Assembly (NCBI GenBank): GCA_963678705.1 | Contig: OY783211.1 | Span: 10,988,603-11,052,602 of the forward strand | DNA from: Panorpa germanica | Lineage: Eukaryota > Arthropoda > Insecta > Mecoptera > Panorpidae | Length of the DNA stretch: 64,000 nt | Direction of reading: 5' to 3' | Made by a program: the position numbers and the translations under genes | Notes under the pieces: generated by a model | The model's input: only the letters and a program-made list of their open reading frames with translations | Told to the model about the DNA's origin: nothing | Database searches by the model: none | Shown: positions 2,721 to 53,501 of the stretch, one piece after another | Position numbering within the stretch: the first letter of the stretch is position 1 | Layout of the letters: each line of letters starts with the position of its first letter

Positions 2721-3310
2721 GAAACGAGAGTACAATGCCACCTCTGATGTGGTAAACGAGAACTATCCAACTTCTTATGTGGAAAACAATAACCAATCCG
2801 CTAATCTGGTGTGGAATCAAGGTACTCTTGTTTAATTTAGGGCAATGTCAATTCAATTAATATTCAACTATGTAATATCTTAGTTGGTTTGTCAGGATGA
2901 TAAAGAATCACATAATTGGTTTAATACATTTATTGAATAAAATAATAACGATGATAATAATAATGATAATAATACAATAAAGATACAATATAAACGTTGG
3001 TGTTTACTTTACAAATACAAAACAATGAATGCACAAACAACCTTAAGTTCTAGTTAATATATACTCAGTCCTATACATTAGTTTTTAGCTTGACTTTAAA
3101 AAGGTTTGTTATTTTAATTCTAAGAATACGCCTGGTTAATTTCAATAAACACACACCCTCAAATATTCAGTCAGTGGTTTTAAGTTCTAAGTGCTTTCAC
3201 TTGGTTTCTATTTAAAACATACCGTCATTAATCACATTCTTTATGACTTCCTAGACCGGGTATTATAGTTATGCCTACTTTGCATGCTCGATGTATTTTT
3301 ACGTTTCACA
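2717..3310 (-). repeat. 3' LTR (594 bp)
   Basis: Identical to the right LTR from 2791 to 3310 (constant offset of 2946 bases, no mismatch found by reading). It is 62 bp longer at its outer end, where three diverged copies of a TGTGGAAACGAG-like unit occur (2717, 2752 and 2779). The last 70 bases of the gag-pol ORF (3241-3310) lie inside this LTR. Confidence 0.9.
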
Positions 3311-5427
3311 CGGCCGTCCAACTTATCTTTGGCCCCCAAAGACGATACGTCACTGCGGTCATCTGGTTGTGGTTCGGCACCTGACACTACAGTTTCAGAA
3401 TCGCTGTCGTCTGAGAACACACCCCATGGCTTCATGTGGTCAGCACTTGAATGTGTATTAGAAGAACCTTCCCCTTCACCGATACGTCTTACCCTATAAC
3501 GTTCATTTGGGTCAACTCCTGTAACCTGATACGGTCCAAAATATTTGTTATGTAAATTAAATCCAGTACCAAACTGGGTTCTTTTTACGGCAACAATGTC
3601 TCCGACTTTATATGTCCTAGCTGGTTTCCTATTTCTATTGAAATTCTTGCGATGCTCTTCCTGTGGTTTTAATATATGTTTCTTGTCGTTAGCACGTAAC
3701 TCGTGGAAATCGTCCTTACGCATTTCTCGATTACTTTCTTCTAACAGCTGAGAGATATGCGTCTCATCTTCTGTTTTCATTGTCACACCTGTTAACAACT
3801 TGAACGGTGTAGTATTTATGCTACGCTGATAAGTTTTGTTTAATGCTTGCTCTTCGACCTTGCCGTCGTTTAACCAGGTTTCTACATGTTTCTCAACTTC
3901 TTCTTGTTCGCAGTAAGCCATACGTCGCGAATTTTGAAAAACAGGAACCTCATCGGTCATGTATATTTCTGCTGCTTCAGTAACCCTTGTTACTTTTGGT
4001 TCATAAGTTTTAACTAGTTCCTCAACTTTAGCCCTGGCACCTGGACTAATGTTATTACCCATGACGATTTCGTCGTCGGCTACACCTAATTTTTTATACT
4101 GTTTACTTTCCACGTACTTTTTTCGCATGGTAATACCGTCTACGCTTATTATAGTTTCTACTTGATCTAGCAGAGGTTTACCGATTACAACACTATGTCT
4201 AGATGTACTTGATGGAACTATTAAAAAGTTAGTACAGTACTGTTCATTGTCTACTTTTACTTGAGCACTAAATTCACCCAAAACTTTGATTTGAAATCCT
4301 CCGATTCCAGTCAATACAATATTGTTTTCACGCACAACCGCTTTATTACTTAATTTAATATAATCGTCAGCTCTAATCAAATTCTGATCACTTCCGGTAT
4401 CAATCAGACATTTAAAACTGTTACTGTCTATGGTCATGTCTTTTGTCATATTACATGTTTTATTTGTGTCCACTAACAAAGCATCACTCGTATTATTCGC
4501 GGTACAATTTCTCGAAATATGTCCCTCTTCGTGACATTTGAAACACTTTATTTTAATTTCACTTTTAATGTTTTTCTTACTTGATTCATCTCTTTTACTA
4601 TTAAGGTATTCGTTGCTTTTTCGGCACACGTTTTCCTTATGTCCGAGTTCATTACAATTAAAACATTTTATCGCGTTTAAGTCTTTTGGTCTGTCTTTAC
4701 GTACACTAAAATTATTCCTTTCTTGCACTTGTAATAGTGTCGAATCATACCGTTTTACTTTTAACAACAAATCAGGCACTGTTTTAAAGTCACACATTGA
4801 TAACACACTTATCAAGTCTTTGTTGTTTAGTCCGGCTATTATGTATTTTATCACGGCCTTTTCACTGATATTATTACTCTTACTGGCGATCGCTTTCACC
4901 GAGTATACATAATCTTCTATTGCTTCGTTTTTTTCTCGTTGTCTCTTCATTAGTTCCATGTGTACGTCAGATTCATCGTACTCCACTGGAAAATTCCTGA
5001 TTAATTCGTATTTGAACGTCGTCCAATCCTTGACTACGTTCAAACTAGCATCAAACCAGTTTTTCGCGGCACACTGCAGCTTGTTGACACCTTGATGAAG
5101 CTTCACTTTATCACTCCAGCCATAAATGTCTGCTATATCCTCCAATTTTCGCACCCAAGCTGTAGCCGTCAATACCGTGGTTGCTGGGTTAAACACAGGT
5201 ATGCATTCCAGGTTCTGTGTCGGCATAAACCCATGATGATTCATTCTCTGTTCCTGTATTGTACTATTCCCGATACTCAACTGCAATAGTTCTGTTCTAA
5301 GCCTCGTCAGCTCTGCTTGTACTCCCAACCAACTATCTTCATTAGATGTTGAGTTACCTGAGCGTCCAGCTAACAAACTATCTTCCACAGTAGTATCGTT
5401 CATGTTTACGTTATATGCCATTTTCAA
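3241..5427 (-). CDS. Gag-protease-integrase C-terminal ORF with internal pol deletion (728 aa)
   Basis: A continuous minus-strand ORF. Residues 1-250 form a gag-like region with no recognised motif. Two CCHC zinc knuckles, which bind genomic RNA in Gag, lie at C255-C268 and C295-C308. A retroviral-type aspartic protease has its catalytic D-T-G-S at 343-346. The N-terminal edge of RT follows (EVPVFQNSRRM through WLNDGKV, about 495-524). At about 524-529 the frame jumps directly to the end of the integrase core (SINTTPFKLLTG) and then to the C-terminal GPY-type module (FGPY at 630-633). The RT catalytic YxDD, RNase H and integrase D,D,E are absent, so the product cannot copy or integrate the element alone. 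The start is the first ATG of the frame; a second ATG lies two codons downstream. The frame has no stop or frameshift apart from the deletion. Confidence 0.9.
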   Translation of the reverse strand: MKMAYNVNMNDTTVEDSLLAGRSGNSTSNEDSWLGVQAELTRLRTELLQLSIGNSTIQEQRMNHHGFMPTQNLECIPVFNPATTVLTATAWVRKLEDIADIYGWSDKVKLHQGVNKLQCAAKNWFDASLNVVKDWTTFKYELIRNFPVEYDESDVHMELMKRQREKNEAIEDYVYSVKAIASKSNNISEKAVIKYIIAGLNNKDLISVLSMCDFKTVPDLLLKVKRYDSTLLQVQERNNFSVRKDRPKDLNAIKCFNCNELGHKENVCRKSNEYLNSKRDESSKKNIKSEIKIKCFKCHEEGHISRNCTANNTSDALLVDTNKTCNMTKDMTIDSNSFKCLIDTGSDQNLIRADDYIKLSNKAVVRENNIVLTGIGGFQIKVLGEFSAQVKVDNEQYCTNFLIVPSSTSRHSVVIGKPLLDQVETIISVDGITMRKKYVESKQYKKLGVADDEIVMGNNISPGARAKVEELVKTYEPKVTRVTEAAEIYMTDEVPVFQNSRRMAYCEQEEVEKHVETWLNDGKVEEQALNKTYQRSINTTPFKLLTGVTMKTEDETHISQLLEESNREMRKDDFHELRANDKKHILKPQEEHRKNFNRNRKPARTYKVGDIVAVKRTQFGTGFNLHNKYFGPYQVTGVDPNERYRVRRIGEGEGSSNTHSSADHMKPWGVFSDDSDSETVVSGAEPQPDDRSDVSSLGAKDKLDGRVKRKNTSSMQSRHNYNTRSRKS

Positions 5428-5724: not shown

Positions 5725-6256
5725 TGTGGAAACGATAACCAATCCGCTAATCTGGTGTGGAATCAAGGTACTCTTGTTTAATTTAGGGCAATGTCAATTC
5801 AATTAATATTCAACTATGTAATATCTTAGTTGGTTTGTCAGGATGATAAAGAATCACATAATTGGTTTAATACATTTATTGAATAAAATAATAACGATGA
5901 TAATAATAATGATAATAATACAATAAAGATACAATATAAACGTTGGTGTTTACTTTACAAATACAAAACAATGAATGCACAAACAACCTTAAGTTCTAGT
6001 TAATATATACTCAGTCCTATACATTAGTTTTTAGCTTGACTTTAAAAAGGTTTGTTATTTTAATTCTAAGAATACGCCTGGTTAATTTCAATAAACACAC
6101 ACCCTCAAATATTCAGTCAGTGGTTTTAAGTTCTAAGTGCTTTCACTTGGTTTCTATTTAAAACATACCGTCATTAATCACATTCTTTATGACTTCCTAG
6201 ACCGGGTATTATAGTTATGCCTACTTTGCATGCTCGATGTATTTTTACGTTTCACA
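5725..6256 (-). repeat. 5' LTR (532 bp)
   Basis: Right-hand direct repeat, with plus-strand ends TGTGGAAACG and CGTTTCACA. It matches the left LTR base for base over its inner 520 bp but lacks 62 bp of subrepeats at the leader-proximal end, keeping one TGTGGAAACG unit where the left LTR has three. Confidence 0.9.
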
Positions 6257-7700
6257 TATATATATATCTGGTACAATCAATGATCAGGGTCCAATTTTTA
6301 ATTATTATTGTATTATTTTTGGGAAAGTAATATACATTTAACGGACCAAAGTTGAATCTATTTGTTAAACATAATATACTGTGCACCTGAAGATGGAAAG
6401 CCGAAAGCTAATATTTTATGTACTTAATTAATTATTAAAGTAATTGGGTTAAACAAATTAACTTTTTTATCAGAAAAATTTAAGGGATGAAAGATCCTCA
6501 ACCAATATCCCGCTAAACACATTTAAGTGCATTTAAAATTTTTCTAACATAAGAAAAATTACTTGTTACGTAAACGAATTTATCTAATATATGTATAACT
6601 TTTTGTGACCTATTTTACTGCTTTTGAAAATTGTATCTAACCTTAAATGCATTACTGAAAATACTCTTTTCAAGACCTGCTTTCAGATAATAAAATCTTG
6701 AGTCAAAGTAATCCTAAGTTAAAAATAAGAAGTCCCTTTAATGAGGCTTTTTGAATAATTATAGAATATTAATAGATTAACTTATATAAATATTAACAGA
6801 TTTGGATTAAGTAAGATAACATTAACGTTTTGTGTTTTGAGAGATATTTATTTTGAATTCTAATTTGATGGACTTTTTGAGACCACGGTTTTTTTTTTCG
6901 CTCTGTAAATTACTATAACATTTGTAATTACATTAATATTATGCATCATAATTGAAAAATCGTCTTGAAACTTTCCTTGCATTGATTCCTTCTGCTGACC
7001 CCTTTTGCGGGATATATATATATATTAACTTCTACTATAAGTAATTACTTTTATGTAAGAAATGTTACCAAAAAAAGTGTATTTTTTATACTTAATTTAT
7101 TGCTAATAGAATATTCTTTTAAATGTGAGTAGAGTTATAAAATTACCTGTTCCACACCTTTCTCAATGTTTAGAATAATAATAGGTTTAGAAAAAATTTT
7201 AATCTATAAATATGATTATATTTATATGCATTAAGGTATGCGTAACACATGAACAACGTTATAAGGGGGTCTACAGTTTCTATTTTTCTTTCAAAATCAA
7301 AATCATCAAAAACATGAACACCTTCATAAGTTAACGCTAATGATGATCCTTTGCGTAACAGGTGTAAAGTAACCTAAACAAGTTTAAACGTTTACCTAGT
7401 TGTTTTAAAAGCTTACAAAGTTAACTTGTGGTTTAACGTTTGCACGTATTCGTACTAAAAACTTTTTATGAGTGAAGTCGTTAATTTGCTTTGATGTTTA
7501 ATAAAGTACCCTACAGTTGTTTACTCGTTCCATTTACTCGACAAATCTAAAAATCACCTGTTATAGCCACCATGATTTTATATTTTCTTTTAGATGTTCA
7601 ACATTTTTTATAAATGGAAAGGGTAATAGTTTTCTGAACAGATATACTGTAAAGTTTTTTAATAAAGTTAAAAGAATCTTGACAGTTAATAGCAGCGATA
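6257..7700. other. AT-rich spacer with one hammerhead-like motif
   Basis: No coding exon is seen. At 6386-6408 CCTGAAGATGG is followed by AAAG, CC and GAAAGC, which resembles the degenerate hammerhead-type core remembered from Penelope-like retroelements (CTGANGA, a small GG/CC stem, then GAAA). The flanks give no protein remnant, so the assignment is weak. Confidence 0.4.
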
Positions 7701-16126: not shown

Positions 16127-16129
16127 TTA

Positions 16130-16591
16130 GGGGGCGTCCATAAATTACGTGAGATGTTTAAGGGGGGGAGGGGGTCGAGTCAAATCTCATCTAATCTTCC
16201 GTTGGAGAGAGGAGGGGTCTCGGCAAATATCACGCAATTTTTTTTCTGATTGAAACAAAAAAAAATTATACTATTTTGGTCCATTTAATCTAGATTGTAC
16301 ATGCTTAAGGCCTGTCTCAGTATGGGACCGTATTTAAGCGAATTTCTGCCGGACGTATACGGGCTACTACGCTTTACCTATCCGAACCATGTAAATGTAA
16401 TGAGATCGCTCTGGAGCTCTCAGACTGCAAGCTACAAAGCCGTCCGAATACGGGCGGCACTACCTCGCACAGTAGAACCGAATAAAGGCGAATTTTATCC
16501 AAGCGTTACCACTACTACAACGATACCCTAACGAACCTTTGTAAATGCAGAAAATTAAAAAAAACACCTCACGTAATTTATGGACGCCCCC
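16130..16591. mobile_element. MITE with TTA target duplication (PIF/Harbinger-like), copy 1
   Basis: Both ends carry a 30-bp TIR beginning GGGGGCGTCCATAAATTACG, one mismatch apart. TTA precedes the left end (16127-16129) and follows the right end (16592-16594). A 3-bp TWA duplication is the PIF/Harbinger signature. About 150 bp of the left part and about 40 bp of the right match the copy at 47045. The core, about 16300-16545, is richer in GC and absent from the other copy, so it may be a captured or nested segment. A 78-codon frame in the core has no known motif. Confidence 0.8.
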
Positions 16592-47041: not shown

Positions 47042-47044
47042 TTA

Positions 47045-47481
47045 GGGGGCGTCCATAAATTACGTGAGATGTTTAAGGGGGGGAGGGGGTCGAGTCAAAT
47101 CTCATCTAATCTTCCGTTGGAGAGAGGGGGGGTCTCGGCAAATATCACGCAATTTTTTTTCTGATTGAAACAAAAAAAAATTATACTATTCTGGTAATGA
47201 CGATTTAAGTATTCTATTGTTAAATTTTTATTACACTAATAATTAAACTCTCAGCAATATTGATTACTAGTCTTAACTAGTCGTAAATAAAAGCAAATTT
47301 TTTTTTTCTTTTTACAATAACAATCCAACGCGTTTACGTAAGAAACCCACATTTTGAAAAATCTCACGTGAGATTGGGGGATGGGGGAGGGGGTTGAATA
47401 AAATCTCACGACATCTCACCAGGGGGCGAGGGAGGAACAGAAAATTTAAAAAAACACCTCACGTAATTTATGGACGCCCCC
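47045..47481. mobile_element. MITE with TTA target duplication (PIF/Harbinger-like), copy 2
   Basis: The termini are GGGGGCGTCCATAAATTACG and its inverse, flanked by TTA at 47042-47044 and 47482-47484. The left 150 bp match copy 1 at 16130 nearly base for base. The right subterminal region has a G-rich block (GGGGGATGGGGGAGGGGG) that mirrors the left one (AAGGGGGGGAGGGGGTCGAG), so the G-rich stretches are part of long imperfect inverted repeats. It lies just upstream of the large fold-back element. Confidence 0.82.
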
Positions 47482-47691
47482 TTAGGTTTTGCGGATGAGA
47501 TTCACATCACATAAAAAATTAGGGTTAGATTCCGAATCTGTTTTTTTGAAAACTTATATAAACAATAATTATATTATTCATATAAGTTGAAAACTATCTA
47601 AGACTACACAGTGTGTGAGAGCATTTTGAGCATGTTTGACGCTGACTGCTATGTCTAAGTTTGGTTCTTGTTAAGTTAAATTGGTTATATA

Positions 47692-47700
47692 CATATACAA
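47692..47700. repeat. 9-bp target-site duplication, left copy
   Basis: CATATACAA abuts the first base of the fold-back element and recurs exactly at 53493-53501, immediately after its last base. This proves the element boundaries and its insertion by a transposase that makes 9-bp staggered cuts. Confidence 0.93.
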
Positions 47701-47984
47701 ACGTCGGTGAAGATAGCAGCGGATTCGATAGCAGTCGATTCGGACTAGTGTTGTAAATCAAAACTAATTCGGTGTTAAATCGAAATTCAAATTACATGGC
47801 TAATCGGAACATTTAAGCAAATATTTAAGTAATAATAGACTGTAGAAGTATTAAGTAACCTAAATATTATTATATAATGAATAAATTAACCAATTAGTGT
47901 CTTATATTGCTGTTTTAATATAGGAAAATAAAACGCAAACGAACATCTAAATAATCATAACTTTTTGATATTATTTTTTTATAA

Positions 47985-48475
47985 ATAGGTTAACTAATAT
48001 GTCTCTTAGGTAATTACAAAATTTCAGCCGTCACAAATTCTTATTTTCTACAAAAAGTGCAATTTAGTGAAACTATATACAGCTCTGTTTCATATCTGTG
48101 CGGCAAGTCATAAGAAGCTTAAAAATCTAAACAAAATTATCATTTAATGAAATTATTTGTTTATAAATAGTTTAACTAATATGTCTCTTAGGTAGTTACA
48201 AAATTTCAGCCATCACAAATTCTTATTTTCTACAAAAAGTGCAATTTAGTGAAACTATATACAGCTCTGTTTCATATCTGTGCGGCAAGTCATAAGAAGC
48301 TTAAAAATCTAAACAAAATTATCATTTAATGAAATTATTTGTTTATAAATAGTTTAACTAATATGTCTCTTAGGTAGTTACAAAATTTCAGCCATCACAA
48401 ATTCTTATTTTCTTCAAAAAGTGCAATTTAGTGAAACTATATACAGCTCTGTTTCATATTTGTATTGGCAACTTA
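47985..48475 (+). repeat. 182-bp tandem subrepeats, left arm (about 2.7 units)
   Basis: TAACTAATATGTCTCTTAGG recurs at 47991, 48173 and 48355, exactly 182 bp apart. Each unit includes CAGCTCTGTTTCATATCTGT then GCGGCAAG. The third unit decays into the neighbouring repeats at 48468-48620 and 48725-48874, which keep the CTCTGTTCCATATCTGTGCG core. The arm interior probably grew from one ancestral unit. Confidence 0.92.
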
Positions 48476-49358
48476 TAAGATGTCAAATTCAAAGATAACC
48501 TAAAAATTCAGTACGTTTATAAAATCTGGCAGTCGATTCAGTGACAGCTCTGTTCCATATCTGTGCGGCAACATATAAGATATTTAAAAATCGTAAAAAC
48601 CTCATTATGTAATAAAATTATTTTTCTATAAATAGCAATTGCAATTTATATAAAATTAAATTTGCAATAATATTGCAATTTAGTAAATTCCTATACAATG
48701 ACAGCTCGGTTTCATATTTGTATAGGCAACTTATAAGATGTAAAATTCAAAGATAACCCAAAAATGCAGTACGTCTTTAAAATCTGGCAGTCGATTCAGT
48801 GAGCGCTCTGTTCCATATCTGTGCGGCAACTATAAGATATTTAAAAATCGTAAAAACCTCATTATGTAATGAAAGTATTTGAATGAAGATAGTTTTAATT
48901 ATTTAATAAGACTCTCTTGTCTCTTGCATTGACCTGTTCATATTGACAAATGAAAACGATAATACAGTCGTTGCTAGAAAACATATTAAATTTTACTTTA
49001 AGAAATTGATTAAATAAATATGTCTGTTAAATAGTAACACAATTTTACTTTTTTATTTACTTTAAAAATTATAATTTATTGAAACTAATTACCATGACAG
49101 CTCGATTACTAATTAAACAGCTATCTTTTATTTAATTCTAGTTCATTCTTAGTATAGTCAGTGGTTGATTTTAGTACATTGTTTAAATATGTTGTGCAAT
49201 TATTTTATGTACTTTAAGCATCCCATTTATATTCCAATGTAATTGATCGGGTTTATTGTTTTTCTTGTAGAATCTGTAAATAGGGAATGTATACCATATA
49301 TGAGTCTGTGTATTTATTTATTTATATAAGTATGTATTTAAGTATAAACTTCATGTTC

Positions 49359-49793
49359 TTACTGCTCAAACAAGTGTCCATTCACTTTATTATTTTGTAA
49401 AAATAATTCCCGTATATCTAGGACATGAATATAAGGATCTGAAATTATATTCTGGTTAAATAAATAAAAAGAAAATTTTGATGAAATTAGTGAAGTAACT
49501 TACGGCTTTTTGACAATGATAAAATTCTTTCGTTGTATTTGTCTAAGGTTTTTATTTTTTTAGGGTCATTTTCCCATATTGGCGGAGTGGGCAAAGTTAA
49601 CCATATAGCTCTAGATGAAGTTTCGCTTAGTATCTTTGCAATACTTGAAATATTGTAAGTAAATGCTTGATAGTGTTTTTCCTGAAAGCAAATTTGGTCG
49701 TATTTTATATTGTTATACATATAGCTATATTTAAGGTTACTTAATATAATGTTTTATGCTTACTTTCATAATGTCATTTATTCCGATCATTAT
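49359..49793 (-). pseudogene. Inverted 3' copy of the BED-SGNH gene (exons 4-5 and the end of exon 3)
   Basis: An exact mirror of the right arm (coordinates sum to 101011). Exon 4 corresponds to 49504-49681 and exon 5 to 49359-49438 on the minus strand. The open frame at 49487-49720 begins in the mirrored intron 3 and is identical to the right-arm frame except for one residue that falls in intron sequence. It lacks the BED exon, the GDS serine and a promoter, so it is a by-product of the inverted repeat reaching into the gene. Confidence 0.85.
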
Positions 49794-49798
49794 TCATC

Positions 49799-50007
49799 AT
49801 TCGTCAATCAATTGGTTGCCGTAAATTAGGAAGCTAGCAGGTCGCCAATTAATTCATTGTAAACGTGAAACTGTTATCACAGTTACGCTCTTTATTTGGT
49901 AATCAATTGGTTGCCGTAAATTAGGAAGCTAGCAGGTCGCCAATTAATTCATTGTAAACGTGAAACTGTTATCACAGTTAAGCTCTTTATTCGTCAATCA
50001 ATTGGTT
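49799..50007. repeat. 95-bp tandem duplication in the loop
   Basis: TCAATCAATTGGTTGCCGTA recurs at 95-bp spacing (AATCA at 49806, 49901 and 49996), giving two near-identical full units and the start of a third. It sits directly inside the inner end of the left arm and is absent from the right arm. It includes the direct block GTAAACGTGAAACTGTTATC. Confidence 0.9.
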
Positions 50008-50390
50008 ACACTCATGTCTAAATAATGACAACTTATGAATGAAAATATATAAATGTTGGATGTCGCATGTTAATGTCACACCAATCTGTACCAATCATTA
50101 AACTGCAAGGGTCAATTTCGATAGTTATATACATTATAGTAAAATAAGTAACACGAATGCTTAAATTAAATAGCGCAAAAGACCTCTTGCCCCAGATACC
50201 AGAAGGACGACCATATTTAATAAATAAGCTCATTATAAAATATCGAGTAGACGGAGATAGCATCAAATAGAGAAAAAAGTTTAACAAACTGCAGCACCAA
50301 TACCTAATGTTTTTAATCAATTTCTATTTTTCACTCATTCTTTAAAGTATAACAACATTTACCTTATTTTAAAATATTTTGATTATTACC

Positions 50391-51652
50391 ATGTCTGTGC
50401 GTTTTTCAGTTGGGTTGAGTAAGTTTTTCAAAATTAATGATAACCCGGAAGGGGAAGATCATACACAATTAAACAAAAATAAATTGTTGAACGCTGAATG
50501 TAAAATTTGTGCAACAAAATTTTTCATAAATATACAATACTCAAGACGAAATTTGTACTACCATTTGCAAGTAAGTTAAACTTTATTTAAATTTGAGATA
50601 CCTAATGAAATATATTTTTAACAAACAAACTTGTCAACAAGCAAATCGAAAGCGAAACCATTGGCACAATTCAAACATGTGCCAATATATGTATACGTTA
50701 TAAAATATAAATACAAAGATTTAATTTTGAAAACAAAAAGGTAATTAATTTCAAAAAGGTTGCATAACGGCCAAAAAAATAGGTTATTTATAATTTAATT
50801 AAAAAAATATTGAAAAATATAAATAGCATTTAATTATATTTTAGAGAAAGCATCCAAAAACTATAAATAAATTAAAGGATCTGGAAATTGAAAGCAAACT
50901 AATGCAGTCTGACGCTCTTAATAGTAATAATGTTCTCGTAAGTATAACTACAAAACTTCTAAGTAATGGAATGTATGTATTGTAATTGTGTGTAATTGGA
51001 TGCCGTAAAGTAACAACATTTATTTTAAATTTCCAAGTATTCTACATGGACTCTTTATGGAGACTCTTTTCTGGTAAGATATGCCAAAAAGATTTTATTT
51101 AAAAAAGAAATAGAATTTAACCACGTAGAATTCGCAAAAAGTGGTAGAAAATCAGTGAATTTAATGGATGATATCAAAAGAAAAAAGGGTAATCCCTTAC
51201 TGACACAAAATGCCATCATAATGATCGGAATAAATGACATTATGAAAGTAAGCATAAAACATTATATTAAGTAACCTTAAATATAGCTATATGTATAACA
51301 ATATAAAATACGACCAAATTTGCTTTCAGGAAAAACACTATCAAGCATTTACTTACAATATTTCAAGTATTGCAAAGATACTAAGCGAAACTTCATCTAG
51401 AGCTATATGGTTAACTTTGCCCACTCCGCCAATATGGGAAAATGACCCTAAAAAAATAAAAACCTTAGACAAATACAACGAAAGAATTTTATCATTGTCA
51501 AAAAGCCGTAAGATACTTCACTAATTTCATCAAAATTTTCTTTTTATTTATTTAACCAGAATATAATTTCAGATCCTTATATTCATGTCCTAGATATACG
51601 GGAATTATTTTTACAAAATAATAAAGTGAATGGACACTTGTTTGAGCAGTAA
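50391..51652 (+). CDS. BED zinc finger + SGNH-hydrolase-like protein, 5 exons (246 aa)
   Basis: Exons: 50391-50570, 50845-50937, 51038-51247, 51330-51507 and 51573-51652. Donors are GTAAGT, GTAAGT, GTAAGC and GTAAGA; all acceptors end in AG; joins one to three are phase 0 and join four splits a codon (C/AT, His221). Residues 1-64 form a BED-type DNA-binding finger (C37, C40, H58, H63; the last His is coded across the first junction). Residues 92-246 look like an SGNH/GDSL hydrolase: GDS at 99-101 (nucleophile Ser101), a block II Gly127 in SGRKS, G-x-N-D at 155-158, and a C-terminal NGHL with candidate His242. The usual Asp three residues before that His is not present, so activity is uncertain. 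The start is the ATG of MSVRF; an in-frame ATG four codons upstream is possible. The substrate is unknown. BED fingers are common in hAT transposases, and SGNH domains are known in some CR1 LINE ORF1 proteins, but the pairing is not one I recognise. Confidence 0.75.
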
Positions 51653-53492
51653 GAACATGAAGTTTATACTTAAATACATACTTATATAAATAAATAAATA
51701 CACAGACTCATATATGGTATACATTCCCTATTTACAGATTCTACAAGAAAAACAATAAACCCGATCAATTACATTGGAATATAAATGGGATGCTTAAAGT
51801 ACATAAAATAATTGCACAACATATTTAAACAATGTACTAAAATCAACCACTGACTATACTAAGAATGAACTAGAATTAAATAAAAGATAGCTGTTTAATT
51901 AGTAATCGAGCTGTCATGGTAATTAGTTTCAATAAATTATAATTTTTAAAGTAAATAAAAAAGTAAAATTGTGTTACTATTTAACAGACATATTTATTTA
52001 ATCAATTTCTTAAAGTAAAATTTAATATGTTTTCTAGCAACGACTGTATTATCGTTTTCATTTGTCAATATGAACAGGTCAATGCAAGAGACAAGAGAGT
52101 CTTATTAAATAATTAAAACTATCTTCATTCAAATACTTTCATTACATAATGAGGTTTTTACGATTTTTAAATATCTTATAGTTGCCGCACAGATATGGAA
52201 CAGAGCGCTCACTGAATCGACTGCCAGATTTTAAAGACGTACTGAATTTTTGGGTTATCTTTGAATTTTACATCTTATAAGTTGCCTATACAAATATGAA
52301 ACCGAGCTGTCATTGTATAGGAATTTACTAAATTGCAATATTATTGCAAATTTAATTTTATATAAATTGCAATTGCTATTTATAGAAAAATAATTTTATT
52401 ACATAATGAGGTTTTTACGATTTTTAAATATCTTATATGTTGCCGCACAGATATGGAACAGAGCTGTCACTGAATCGACTGCCAGATTTTATAAACGTAC
52501 TGAATTTTTAGGTTATCTTTGAATTTGACATCTTATAAGTTGCCAATACAAATATGAAACAGAGCTGTATATAGTTTCACTAAATTGCACTTTTTGAAGA
52601 AAATAAGAATTTGTGATGGCTGAAATTTTGTAACTACCTAAGAGACATATTAGTTAAACTATTTATAAACAAATAATTTCATTAAATGATAATTTTGTTT
52701 AGATTTTTAAGCTTCTTATGACTTGCCGCACAGATATGAAACAGAGCTGTATATAGTTTCACTAAATTGCACTTTTTGTAGAAAATAAGAATTTGTGATG
52801 GCTGAAATTTTGTAACTACCTAAGAGACATATTAGTTAAACTATTTATAAACAAATAATTTCATTAAATGATAATTTTGTTTAGATTTTCAAGCTTCTTA
52901 TGACTTGCCGCACAGATATGAAACAGAGCTGTATATAGTTTCACTAAATTGCACTTTTTGTAGAAAATAAGAATTTGTGATGGCTGAAATTTTGTAACTA
53001 CCTAAGAGACATATTAGTTAAACTATTTATAAACAAATAATTTCATTAAATGATAATTTTGTTTAGATTTTTAAGCTTCTTATGACTTGCCGCACAGATA
53101 TGAAACAGAGCTGTATATAGTTTCACTAAATTGCACTTTTTGTAGAAAATAAGAATTTGTGACGGCTGAAATTTTGTAATTACCTAAGAGACATATTAGT
53201 TAACCTATTTATAAAAAAATAATATCAAAAAGTTATGATTATTTAGATGTTCGTTTGCGTTTTATTTTCCTATATTAAAACAGCAATATAAGACACTAAT
53301 TGGTTAATTTATTCATTATATAATAATATTTAGGTTACTTAATACTTCTACAGTCTATTATTACTTAAATATTTGCTTAAATGTTCCGATTAGCCATGTA
53401 ATTTGAATTTCGATTTAACACCGAATTAGTTTTGATTTACAACACTAGTCCGAATCGACTGCTATCGAATCCGCTGCTATCTTCACCGACGT
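51218..53492 (+). repeat. Right terminal inverted repeat (2275 bp)
   Basis: Reverse complement of the left arm. It begins inside exon 3 of the BED-SGNH gene, contains exons 4-5 and their 3' region, and ends ACGT before the 9-bp duplication. It is 182 bp longer than the left arm, exactly one subrepeat unit. Confidence 0.93.
52536..53208 (-). repeat. 182-bp tandem subrepeats, right arm (about 3.7 units)
   Basis: TAGTTAA recurs at 52651, 52833, 53015 and 53197, each 182 bp apart. The outermost unit matches the outermost left unit (GACGGCTG and TTAACC variants). Inner units share GATGGCTG and AAAC. One unit has a private TTTTC change (about 52885). The extra unit therefore arose by duplication or loss of an inner unit after the arms formed. 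Confidence 0.92.
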
Positions 53493-53501
53493 CATATACA
53501 A

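Follow-up and report, generated by a model that had tools for sequence, protein, structure and literature searches.

A probably recent, non-autonomous fold-back transposon of Panorpa germanica and its predicted BED-SGNH gene

The stretch of Panorpa germanica DNA analysed here (contig OY783211.1 of assembly GCA_963678705.1, positions 10,988,603 to 11,052,602; 64,000 nucleotides, hereafter the window) contains at 47701-53492 a fold-back element that is very probably a recently inserted, non-autonomous member of a family of cut-and-paste DNA transposons. An earlier note, made from the letters of the window, had described it as a young, mobile fold-back transposon that duplicates its target, and this description is supported by further copies in the genome, by their target duplications, by empty sites and by the identity of the arms. 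Two points had escaped the note: the element derives from a longer form by deletion, and an intact gene, coding for a BED-like finger and an SGNH hydrolase domain (BED-SGNH), overlaps its right arm. We propose that the full-length form would be ~11 kb long, with arms of more than 2 kb built around 182-bp subrepeats and two divergent genes, each with its 3' end directed towards or lying inside an arm. Gene 1 would encode a transposase of ~1100 amino acids (aa; a length taken from intact relatives) that has a D..D..E core and, at its C-terminus, a Ulp1-type protease, and gene 2 would be the six-exon BED-SGNH gene, kept intact in the window copy.

Structure, copies and empty sites of the element

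Alignment of the two arms confirmed the boundaries of the element exactly. The left arm (47701-49793, plus strand, 2093 bp) and the right arm (51218-53492, minus strand, 2275 bp) align with 2091 matches, two mismatches and a single gap of 182 bp, which corresponds to a 182-bp subrepeat that the right arm has in excess of the left. At each end the element reads ACGTCGGTGAAG, and the 9-bp sequence CATATACAA abuts the element directly on both outer sides (47692-47700 and 53493-53501) as an exact target duplication, so that the termini and the duplication are as the note had read them. Three subrepeats, with identities of 100, 88 and 82% to the reference copy, lie in the left arm (47928-48473, plus strand) and 3.7 copies in the right arm (52548-53227, minus strand), which also holds the 3' half of the BED-SGNH gene. 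Tandem 95-bp repeats are found directly inside the left arm (49794-50007, plus strand).

As the note had proposed, the terminal 300 bp were used to search the genome that the window comes from (464 Mb), which gave at least 64 matches. Forty of the 566 first-look candidates were scored, and 29 of the 40 strong terminal matches belong to 15 delimited copies (window included), a copy number that is a lower bound; the 11 strong matches outside these copies are C17, C19, C7:16901335, C5:2060034, C4:12810, C12:9882767, C8:9908646, two on C6, C11 and C1:10222164. All 15 delimited copies, from 1184 to 31,117 bp in size, share the termini and have target duplications, 9 bp long in 11 of them and 8 bp in four (for copies C10 and C21, the right end was set one base inside the first estimate). 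The outer 240 bp are identical between the arms in seven copies, window included; seven others show one to five mismatches, and copy C4 shows none, with 36 gap columns. This arm identity, together with the target duplications, is the trace of a recently active cut-and-paste element.

Empty sites were found for the window element and for copy C8b. For the window element, the query joined 200 bp of left flank (one CATATACAA included) to 200 bp of right flank, and scoring covered 40 of the 80 candidates. Of the 40 listed matches, two are the window's own flanks and 38 are non-self. Among the latter, 34 cross the junction (base 200) by 6-13 bases, which places the element close to one end of a repeat whose other occurrences have a single copy of the site; the remaining four end before the junction. 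The empty site of C8b is paralogous and lies in the flank of the copy on C16, where the match runs continuously across the C8b junction over 584 columns at 80% identity. By its termini, target duplications and empty sites, the element is a cut-and-paste DNA transposon with terminal inverted repeats.

Some of the copies have structures of their own. In C16:12507735-12512917, the array of 182-bp subrepeats is expanded in one arm, as if a satellite were starting from a transposon. The 21-kb copy C10:4308834-4331030 contains three near-identical segments, one of them inverted, with helicase-like frames that we take to be Helitrons, and also a gag-like frame. At 6191-6556 of the 12-kb copy (C21:23408004-23418003), there are SGNH exons of the type found in a related family (family A, below) and reverse-transcriptase-like frames, so at least one more element is nested there. 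Two termini in reversed order (minus, then plus), starting at terminus bases 34 and 38, were observed at C6:12077642-12080875 and are possibly a rearranged pair.

Transposase and affinities of the family

The longer, transposase-encoding relative that the note had suggested looking for is the 31-kb copy C1:6127827-6158943 (31,117 bp), which has the same ends as the window element and TATTGATTC duplicated on both sides. At the position of window 50007/50008 it has 5740 bases that the window element lacks; the window copy is an internal-deletion derivative that lost 5.74 kb, with the transposase region, at the junction 50007-50008. The right part of the 31-kb copy is split by two large insertions with retroelement frames, presumably of the copia and gypsy types (read over C1:6127327-6159443), and a 5-bp duplication (ATAGT) is present at one of them. 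Subtraction of these nested insertions from the 31,117 bp gives a full-length element of ~11 kb. On the opposite strand, the 5740 bases carry the frames of a large protein ending in an Ulp1-type protease (Peptidase_C48, 2.8e-10). This transposase is decayed and its frames are broken. The earlier note had seen no transposase, which is true of the window copy (the gene it overlooked there is the spliced BED-SGNH one), and had left the moving enzyme unnamed, a question that can now be largely answered by the Ulp1-bearing transposase of the 31-kb copy and by its intact relatives elsewhere.

These relatives were found by searching the genome with a 304-aa piece of the C-terminal part of the transposase, with all 81 candidates scored. 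The 31-kb copy alone gives a 100% match. Elsewhere, identity is 43-49% for matches of nearly full span and reaches 63-81% in shorter pieces, most of which contain stops. Two full-span relatives are open from stop to stop, over 1170 codons (L051) and 1111 codons (L052), with 43% and 49% identity to the query piece and Peptidase_C48 matches of 3.5e-8 and 6e-10, respectively. The transposases have in common the motifs GDATG, TDFSFAL and VES(W/L)F, which can be read as a D-D-E core, with 73 residues between D1 and D2 and 227-234 between D2 and E. A C/H motif between D2 and E is a trait of Mutator-like elements (MULEs). The spacing reported for MULEs is generally 60-76 residues for D1-D2 and generally 120-135 for D2-E, with 151-214 in some families (PMC13359780).

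The 1111-codon frame belongs to family A (C8:957500-977000), where arms of more than 5 kb, 97.8% alike, enclose it. Its termini, ACGTCGGTGAAGTTAGCAGCG on both arms, are 15,933 bp from each other, at positions 2344 and 18276 in the joined stretch, and are near-identical to those of the window element, with ACGTCGGTGAAG common to both arms. Beyond the termini, the 1225 bp of flank on the two sides match each other in inverted orientation with one mismatch (99.9%), so a target duplication is not readable; this larger palindrome is possibly an aberrant transposition product or an assembly effect. Family B has an arm repeat of ~193 bp, the 1170-codon frame and the left end AGGTCGCTGAAGTTAGC, the end at which its termini were compared. 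The Ulp1-bearing transposase of family A is therefore flanked by termini that closely resemble those of the window element, and the left end of family B resembles them as well.

For the window element, we propose that the transposase would be supplied in trans and would make staggered cuts of 8-9 bp. The subrepeats may serve as extra transposase-binding sites, by analogy with the account of Galileo in PMC4079207, and gene conversion or inverted duplication may maintain the likeness of the arms and extend them inward. Inward growth of this kind is suggested by the duplication of the 3' half of gene 2 and by the SGNH exons present in both arms of families A and B.

Several observations weigh against this reading of the enzyme. 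The transposase of the 31-kb copy is without the stretch that would hold the first catalytic Asp, and no intact transposase of the same family was seen; the shorter copies C1b, C8b and C13 retain the deleted stretch but are without the remainder. Next to the same termini, where the note had suggested comparing the transposase class, the Ulp1 domain and the D..D..E layout can be read, but no transposase model matched: the Pfam transposase models gave nothing at E <= 1 with either the 1111- or the 1170-aa relative, and the NCBIfam ones nothing with the 1111-aa relative, the one scanned. A large protein collection queried with residues 200-800 of the 1111-aa transposase returned no relative. The class of the enzyme rests on its motif layout and on Ulp1, and a MULE transposase domain was not recognised by profile.

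Rehavkus/Foldback-type Mutator-like elements are the closest described kind, the Mutator-like assignment being plausible though not proven, and Rehavkus is the best structural match among the descriptions compared. Target duplications of 9 and 8 bp fall in the range typical of MULEs (~8-11 bp, usually 9). Rehavkus, known from insects and annelids, is described as a MULE outgroup or sub-group with 9-bp duplications, arms of 26-400 bp, a PHD finger and a minisatellite (PMC6446971), and the account of Rehavkus-1_TC gives 9.5 kb and a 164-bp repeated unit in the inverted termini (PMC10218199). The likeness lies in the 9-bp duplications (8 bp in 4/15 copies here) and in the repeated unit of the inverted termini; the arms, in contrast, exceed 2 kb here, and the comparison is one of descriptions, not of transposase sequences. 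A PHD finger gave no Pfam match at E <= 1 in the 1111- or 1170-aa relative. The words SGNH and Ulp1 are absent from PMC6446971, as is SGNH from PMC13359780, a survey of arthropod MULEs in which arms of up to 1193 bp are described.

Other explanations of the feature differ in how far they depart from this one. The note had likened it to Foldback and other Mutator-like elements; the 8-9-bp duplications and the subrepeats do fit Foldback, but membership in the MULEs is unproven and Rehavkus is the better match in structure. We regard it as rather unlikely that the element is a classical Foldback of the FB/NOF or Tetris kind and not a Rehavkus-like one. Tetris, a foldback element with ~220-bp arm repeats, 8-10-bp duplications and, as far as its description goes, no known transposase (PMC4079207), resembles our family in its long arms with tandem subrepeats and in its duplications. 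Its copies are described as having no conserved open reading frames, whereas the window family has an Ulp1-bearing transposase and a BED-SGNH gene; a 9.5-kb element with repeat-bearing inverted termini is what is described for Rehavkus-1_TC. A more radical departure, in which the feature would be an inverted duplication or an assembly artefact and no transposon at all, could draw on the near-identity of the arms, which alone might arise in this way, and on the larger palindrome around the family A locus. It has to be set against 15 of 15 delimited copies with common termini and their own 8-9-bp duplications, and against the empty sites, and its probability is negligible; a chance or artefactual palindrome is ruled out by boundaries that recur, with duplications, in multiple copies. 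What our analysis gains over the Tetris report is a link between a fold-back element and a relative that shares its ends and bears a transposase, a link that could not be made there.

A predicted BED-SGNH gene in three families

The BED-SGNH gene spans 50391-51828 on the plus strand, with six predicted exons and five GT-AG introns, and would encode 275 aa. Exon 1 (50391-50570) carries a zinc finger (zf-BED 0.0052, zf-met2 2.9e-4, both below the cut-offs) that we call BED-like only, its score with PF02892 being 17.2 bits against a cut-off of 20.6. It is followed by exon 2 (50845-50937, with GT-AG boundaries), exon 3 (51038-51247) with SGNH blocks I-III (GDSF, SGRKS, GIND), exons 4 (51330-51507) and 5 (51573-51648), and exon 6 (51738-51828) with block V (DQLHWN) and the stop. 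These motifs agree with the SGNH/GDSL consensus for blocks I (GDS), II (G), III (GxND) and V (DxxH, here DQLHW). With the Lipase_GDSL_2 model (cut-off 32.9), the window domain alone scores 33.0 and the full-length window protein 31.6; the corresponding domains of families B and A score 33.9 and 44.3. The end of exon 3 and exons 4-6 lie inside the right arm, so the left arm holds an antisense copy of them, placed at 49183-49793 (minus strand) by the exon coordinates and the gap-free alignment of the inner arms.

Copies matching more than 1400 of the 1438 bases of the gene, those to which the open-frame test was applied, number six in five elements (window included), and all six are open from start to stop. 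In the whole genome, a 246-aa BED-SGNH model gives 163 exon matches at E <= 0.01. SGNH exons occur in both arms of families A and B, with domains 36% (A) and 62% (B, taken from the right arm) identical to that of the window. Between the window and family B, exons 3-6 show proportions of silent and residue-changing differences (pS and pN) of 0.63 and 0.21, and rates per silent and per residue-changing site (dS and dN) of 1.40, near saturation, and 0.25. We conclude that the predicted BED-SGNH gene belongs regularly to these transposons.

Outside the genome, an alignment of the SGNH domains retrieved two metagenomic proteins from the large protein collection, one of which (P0001) reads like an unspliced version of the BED-SGNH arrangement. 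The same alignment gave 161 and 98 pattern matches in scans of viral and prokaryote contigs, respectively, none of them confirmed. Within the genome, an SGNH relative at C21:45775713-45777029, 38-51% identical in three matches and with stops inside, could represent either an old copy or a gene of the host.

It is improbable, in our estimate, that BED-SGNH is a host gene captured by chance, a passenger of the pack-MULE kind without a role in the transposon. Mutator-like elements are described as capturing gene fragments (PMC6431247), a fish SGNH gene, texim, was taken up by Helitrons (PMC4021074), and part of the BED-SGNH gene lies in the duplicated arm. The within-family differences fit a passenger as well: five same-family copies show 7 residue-changing codon differences and 1 silent one relative to the window (small numbers), with no sign of purifying selection. 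This last point also counts against a regular transposon gene, as do the splicing, which is predicted, the left-arm SGNH copy of family B, which does not read through in the gene model, the absence of a recognised BED exon in family A, the GSS in place of GDS in families A and B, and the lack of any relative of an early 246-aa window model in the large protein collection. Capture by chance is opposed, for its part, by the position of most of the BED-SGNH gene beside the transposase in the 31-kb copy (with an insertion in the right part), by the SGNH exons that both arms contain in two families with transposases 43-49% identical to that of the 31-kb copy, by corresponding introns across families and by the low dN/dS between the window and B. 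It is opposed, too, by the contrast between the six tested gene copies, all open, and the broken transposase frames of the copies read. Simple gene capture was rejected on the SGNH exons of three families.

If BED-SGNH is a regular transposon gene, its protein may be an accessory factor: the BED finger would tether the protein to element DNA, and the SGNH domain would hydrolyse an acyl ester or bind lipid, helping transposition or transmission, a tentative proposal along the lines of one made for the SGNH esterase of CR1 retrotransposons. SGNH domains are described in CR1, RTEX and Penelope elements, and the ORF1p of the CR1 element ZfL2-1 offers a mobile-element-encoded SGNH domain with its catalytic residues in place (PMC3905857); those are ORF1 proteins of retrotransposons, whereas the gene here is spliced and lies in a DNA transposon. 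GDSL esterases are described from rotifer Terminons (PMC6431247). The texim gene is, like ours, an intron-bearing SGNH gene mobilised by a DNA transposon, but one of the rolling-circle type and, according to its description, by a capture in the bony fish lineage (PMC4021074), unlike the SGNH exons in the arms of divergent families seen here. Among the papers listed in searches of mostly open-access literature, none describes, by its title and the beginning of its abstract, an SGNH gene from an element of the Mutator, Foldback or Rehavkus type. The family adds a second gene that recurs with a cut-and-paste DNA transposon, SGNH having formerly been known from retrotransposons and from Helitron-captured genes.

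The OSK domain of oskar, and other features of the window

The full window protein also matches the Pfam OSK domain (PF17182, cut-off 27) with 37.6 bits (1.7e-9), more than its 31.6 with Lipase_GDSL_2; in family B the order is reversed (23.3 versus 33.9). Both proteins have an SGNH fold, but OSK is joined to LOTUS and not to a BED finger, and OSK is described as without the key hydrolytic residues (PMC13389597). In the window protein, with its BED-like N-terminus, the OST-HTH (LOTUS) model gave no match, and the protein is no LOTUS fusion. The host's own oskar gene has its OSK domain at C12:279416-280256 (168 bits, exons read here; 1.2e-23 to Drosophila Oskar structures), with an upstream LOTUS-like exon pair scoring 23.2 bits against a cut-off of 23.8. 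An OSK-profile search of the genome gave two matches, both of them host oskar, the transposon SGNH genes not being among them, and a LOTUS-profile search gave five (on C8, C3 and C10), the host oskar locus not being among them.

Compared directly, the window protein and host OSK are 21% identical over 190 columns (E 2e-4, single comparison), and a profile-profile comparison of the transposon SGNH domains with two OSK domains covers 174 columns with a probability of 93.6%. Introns were compared in a six-sequence alignment with one oskar gene. The transposon introns after GINDIMK, GINDIIK and GINDVIN, all phase 0, share their alignment column with the phase-0 intron that OSK has after GSVDILL, and a phase-2 intron of OSK lies 2 columns from the window and B introns and 3 from that of A, all phase 2. 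Random placement would produce one exact coincidence with a chance of 0.016, and, with phases equal, an exact one together with two others no more than three codons apart with a chance of 0.0007. An ordinary host SGNH gene (the sole match of the GDSL profile; one gene) has no intron at the block III position.

These data suggest, as a possibility that we hold to be doubtful, that the OSK and transposon SGNH domains descend from one intron-bearing gene of an insect or other eukaryote and not from direct bacterial transfer. Most simply, an early insect would have domesticated a transposon SGNH gene beside a LOTUS gene; transfer in reverse, from OSK to the transposon, could also have taken place. 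Against a shared origin stand the family B score below the OSK cut-off and the absence of a match in family A, the other introns, which are unshared (OSK column 33, transposon columns 138-139), and the design of the intron comparison, which was chosen after the likeness had been seen and covers one oskar gene. A bacterial origin of OSK is argued by Blondel et al. (PMC7250577) and by a 2026 PNAS paper (PMC13389597), the former naming transposable elements as a possible cause of integration, not as a source, and Lynch et al. report that Oskar did not match insect SGNH proteins significantly (PMC3084197). Most Lepidoptera are described as without oskar (PMC8662646). A literature search for a transposable-element origin of OSK retrieved the two papers cited above for bacterial transfer (PMC7250577, PMC13389597) and two that, judged from the listing, treat other subjects. 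A shared origin, if true, would call into question the direct bacterial origin of this domain of oskar, and an intron-bearing animal relative of OSK makes the origin of the second half of oskar testable by intron positions and trees.

The remaining features of the window are minor. Scans with Rfam, at gathering scores, and for tRNA genes gave no match. Just left of the element, 47044-47482 contains a 31-bp inverted pair (97%), with similar stretches of 31 bp at 16129 and 47 bp at 16548, which is probably another short repeat family. The longest open frame of the window, 728 aa, lies at 3241-5427 on the minus strand.

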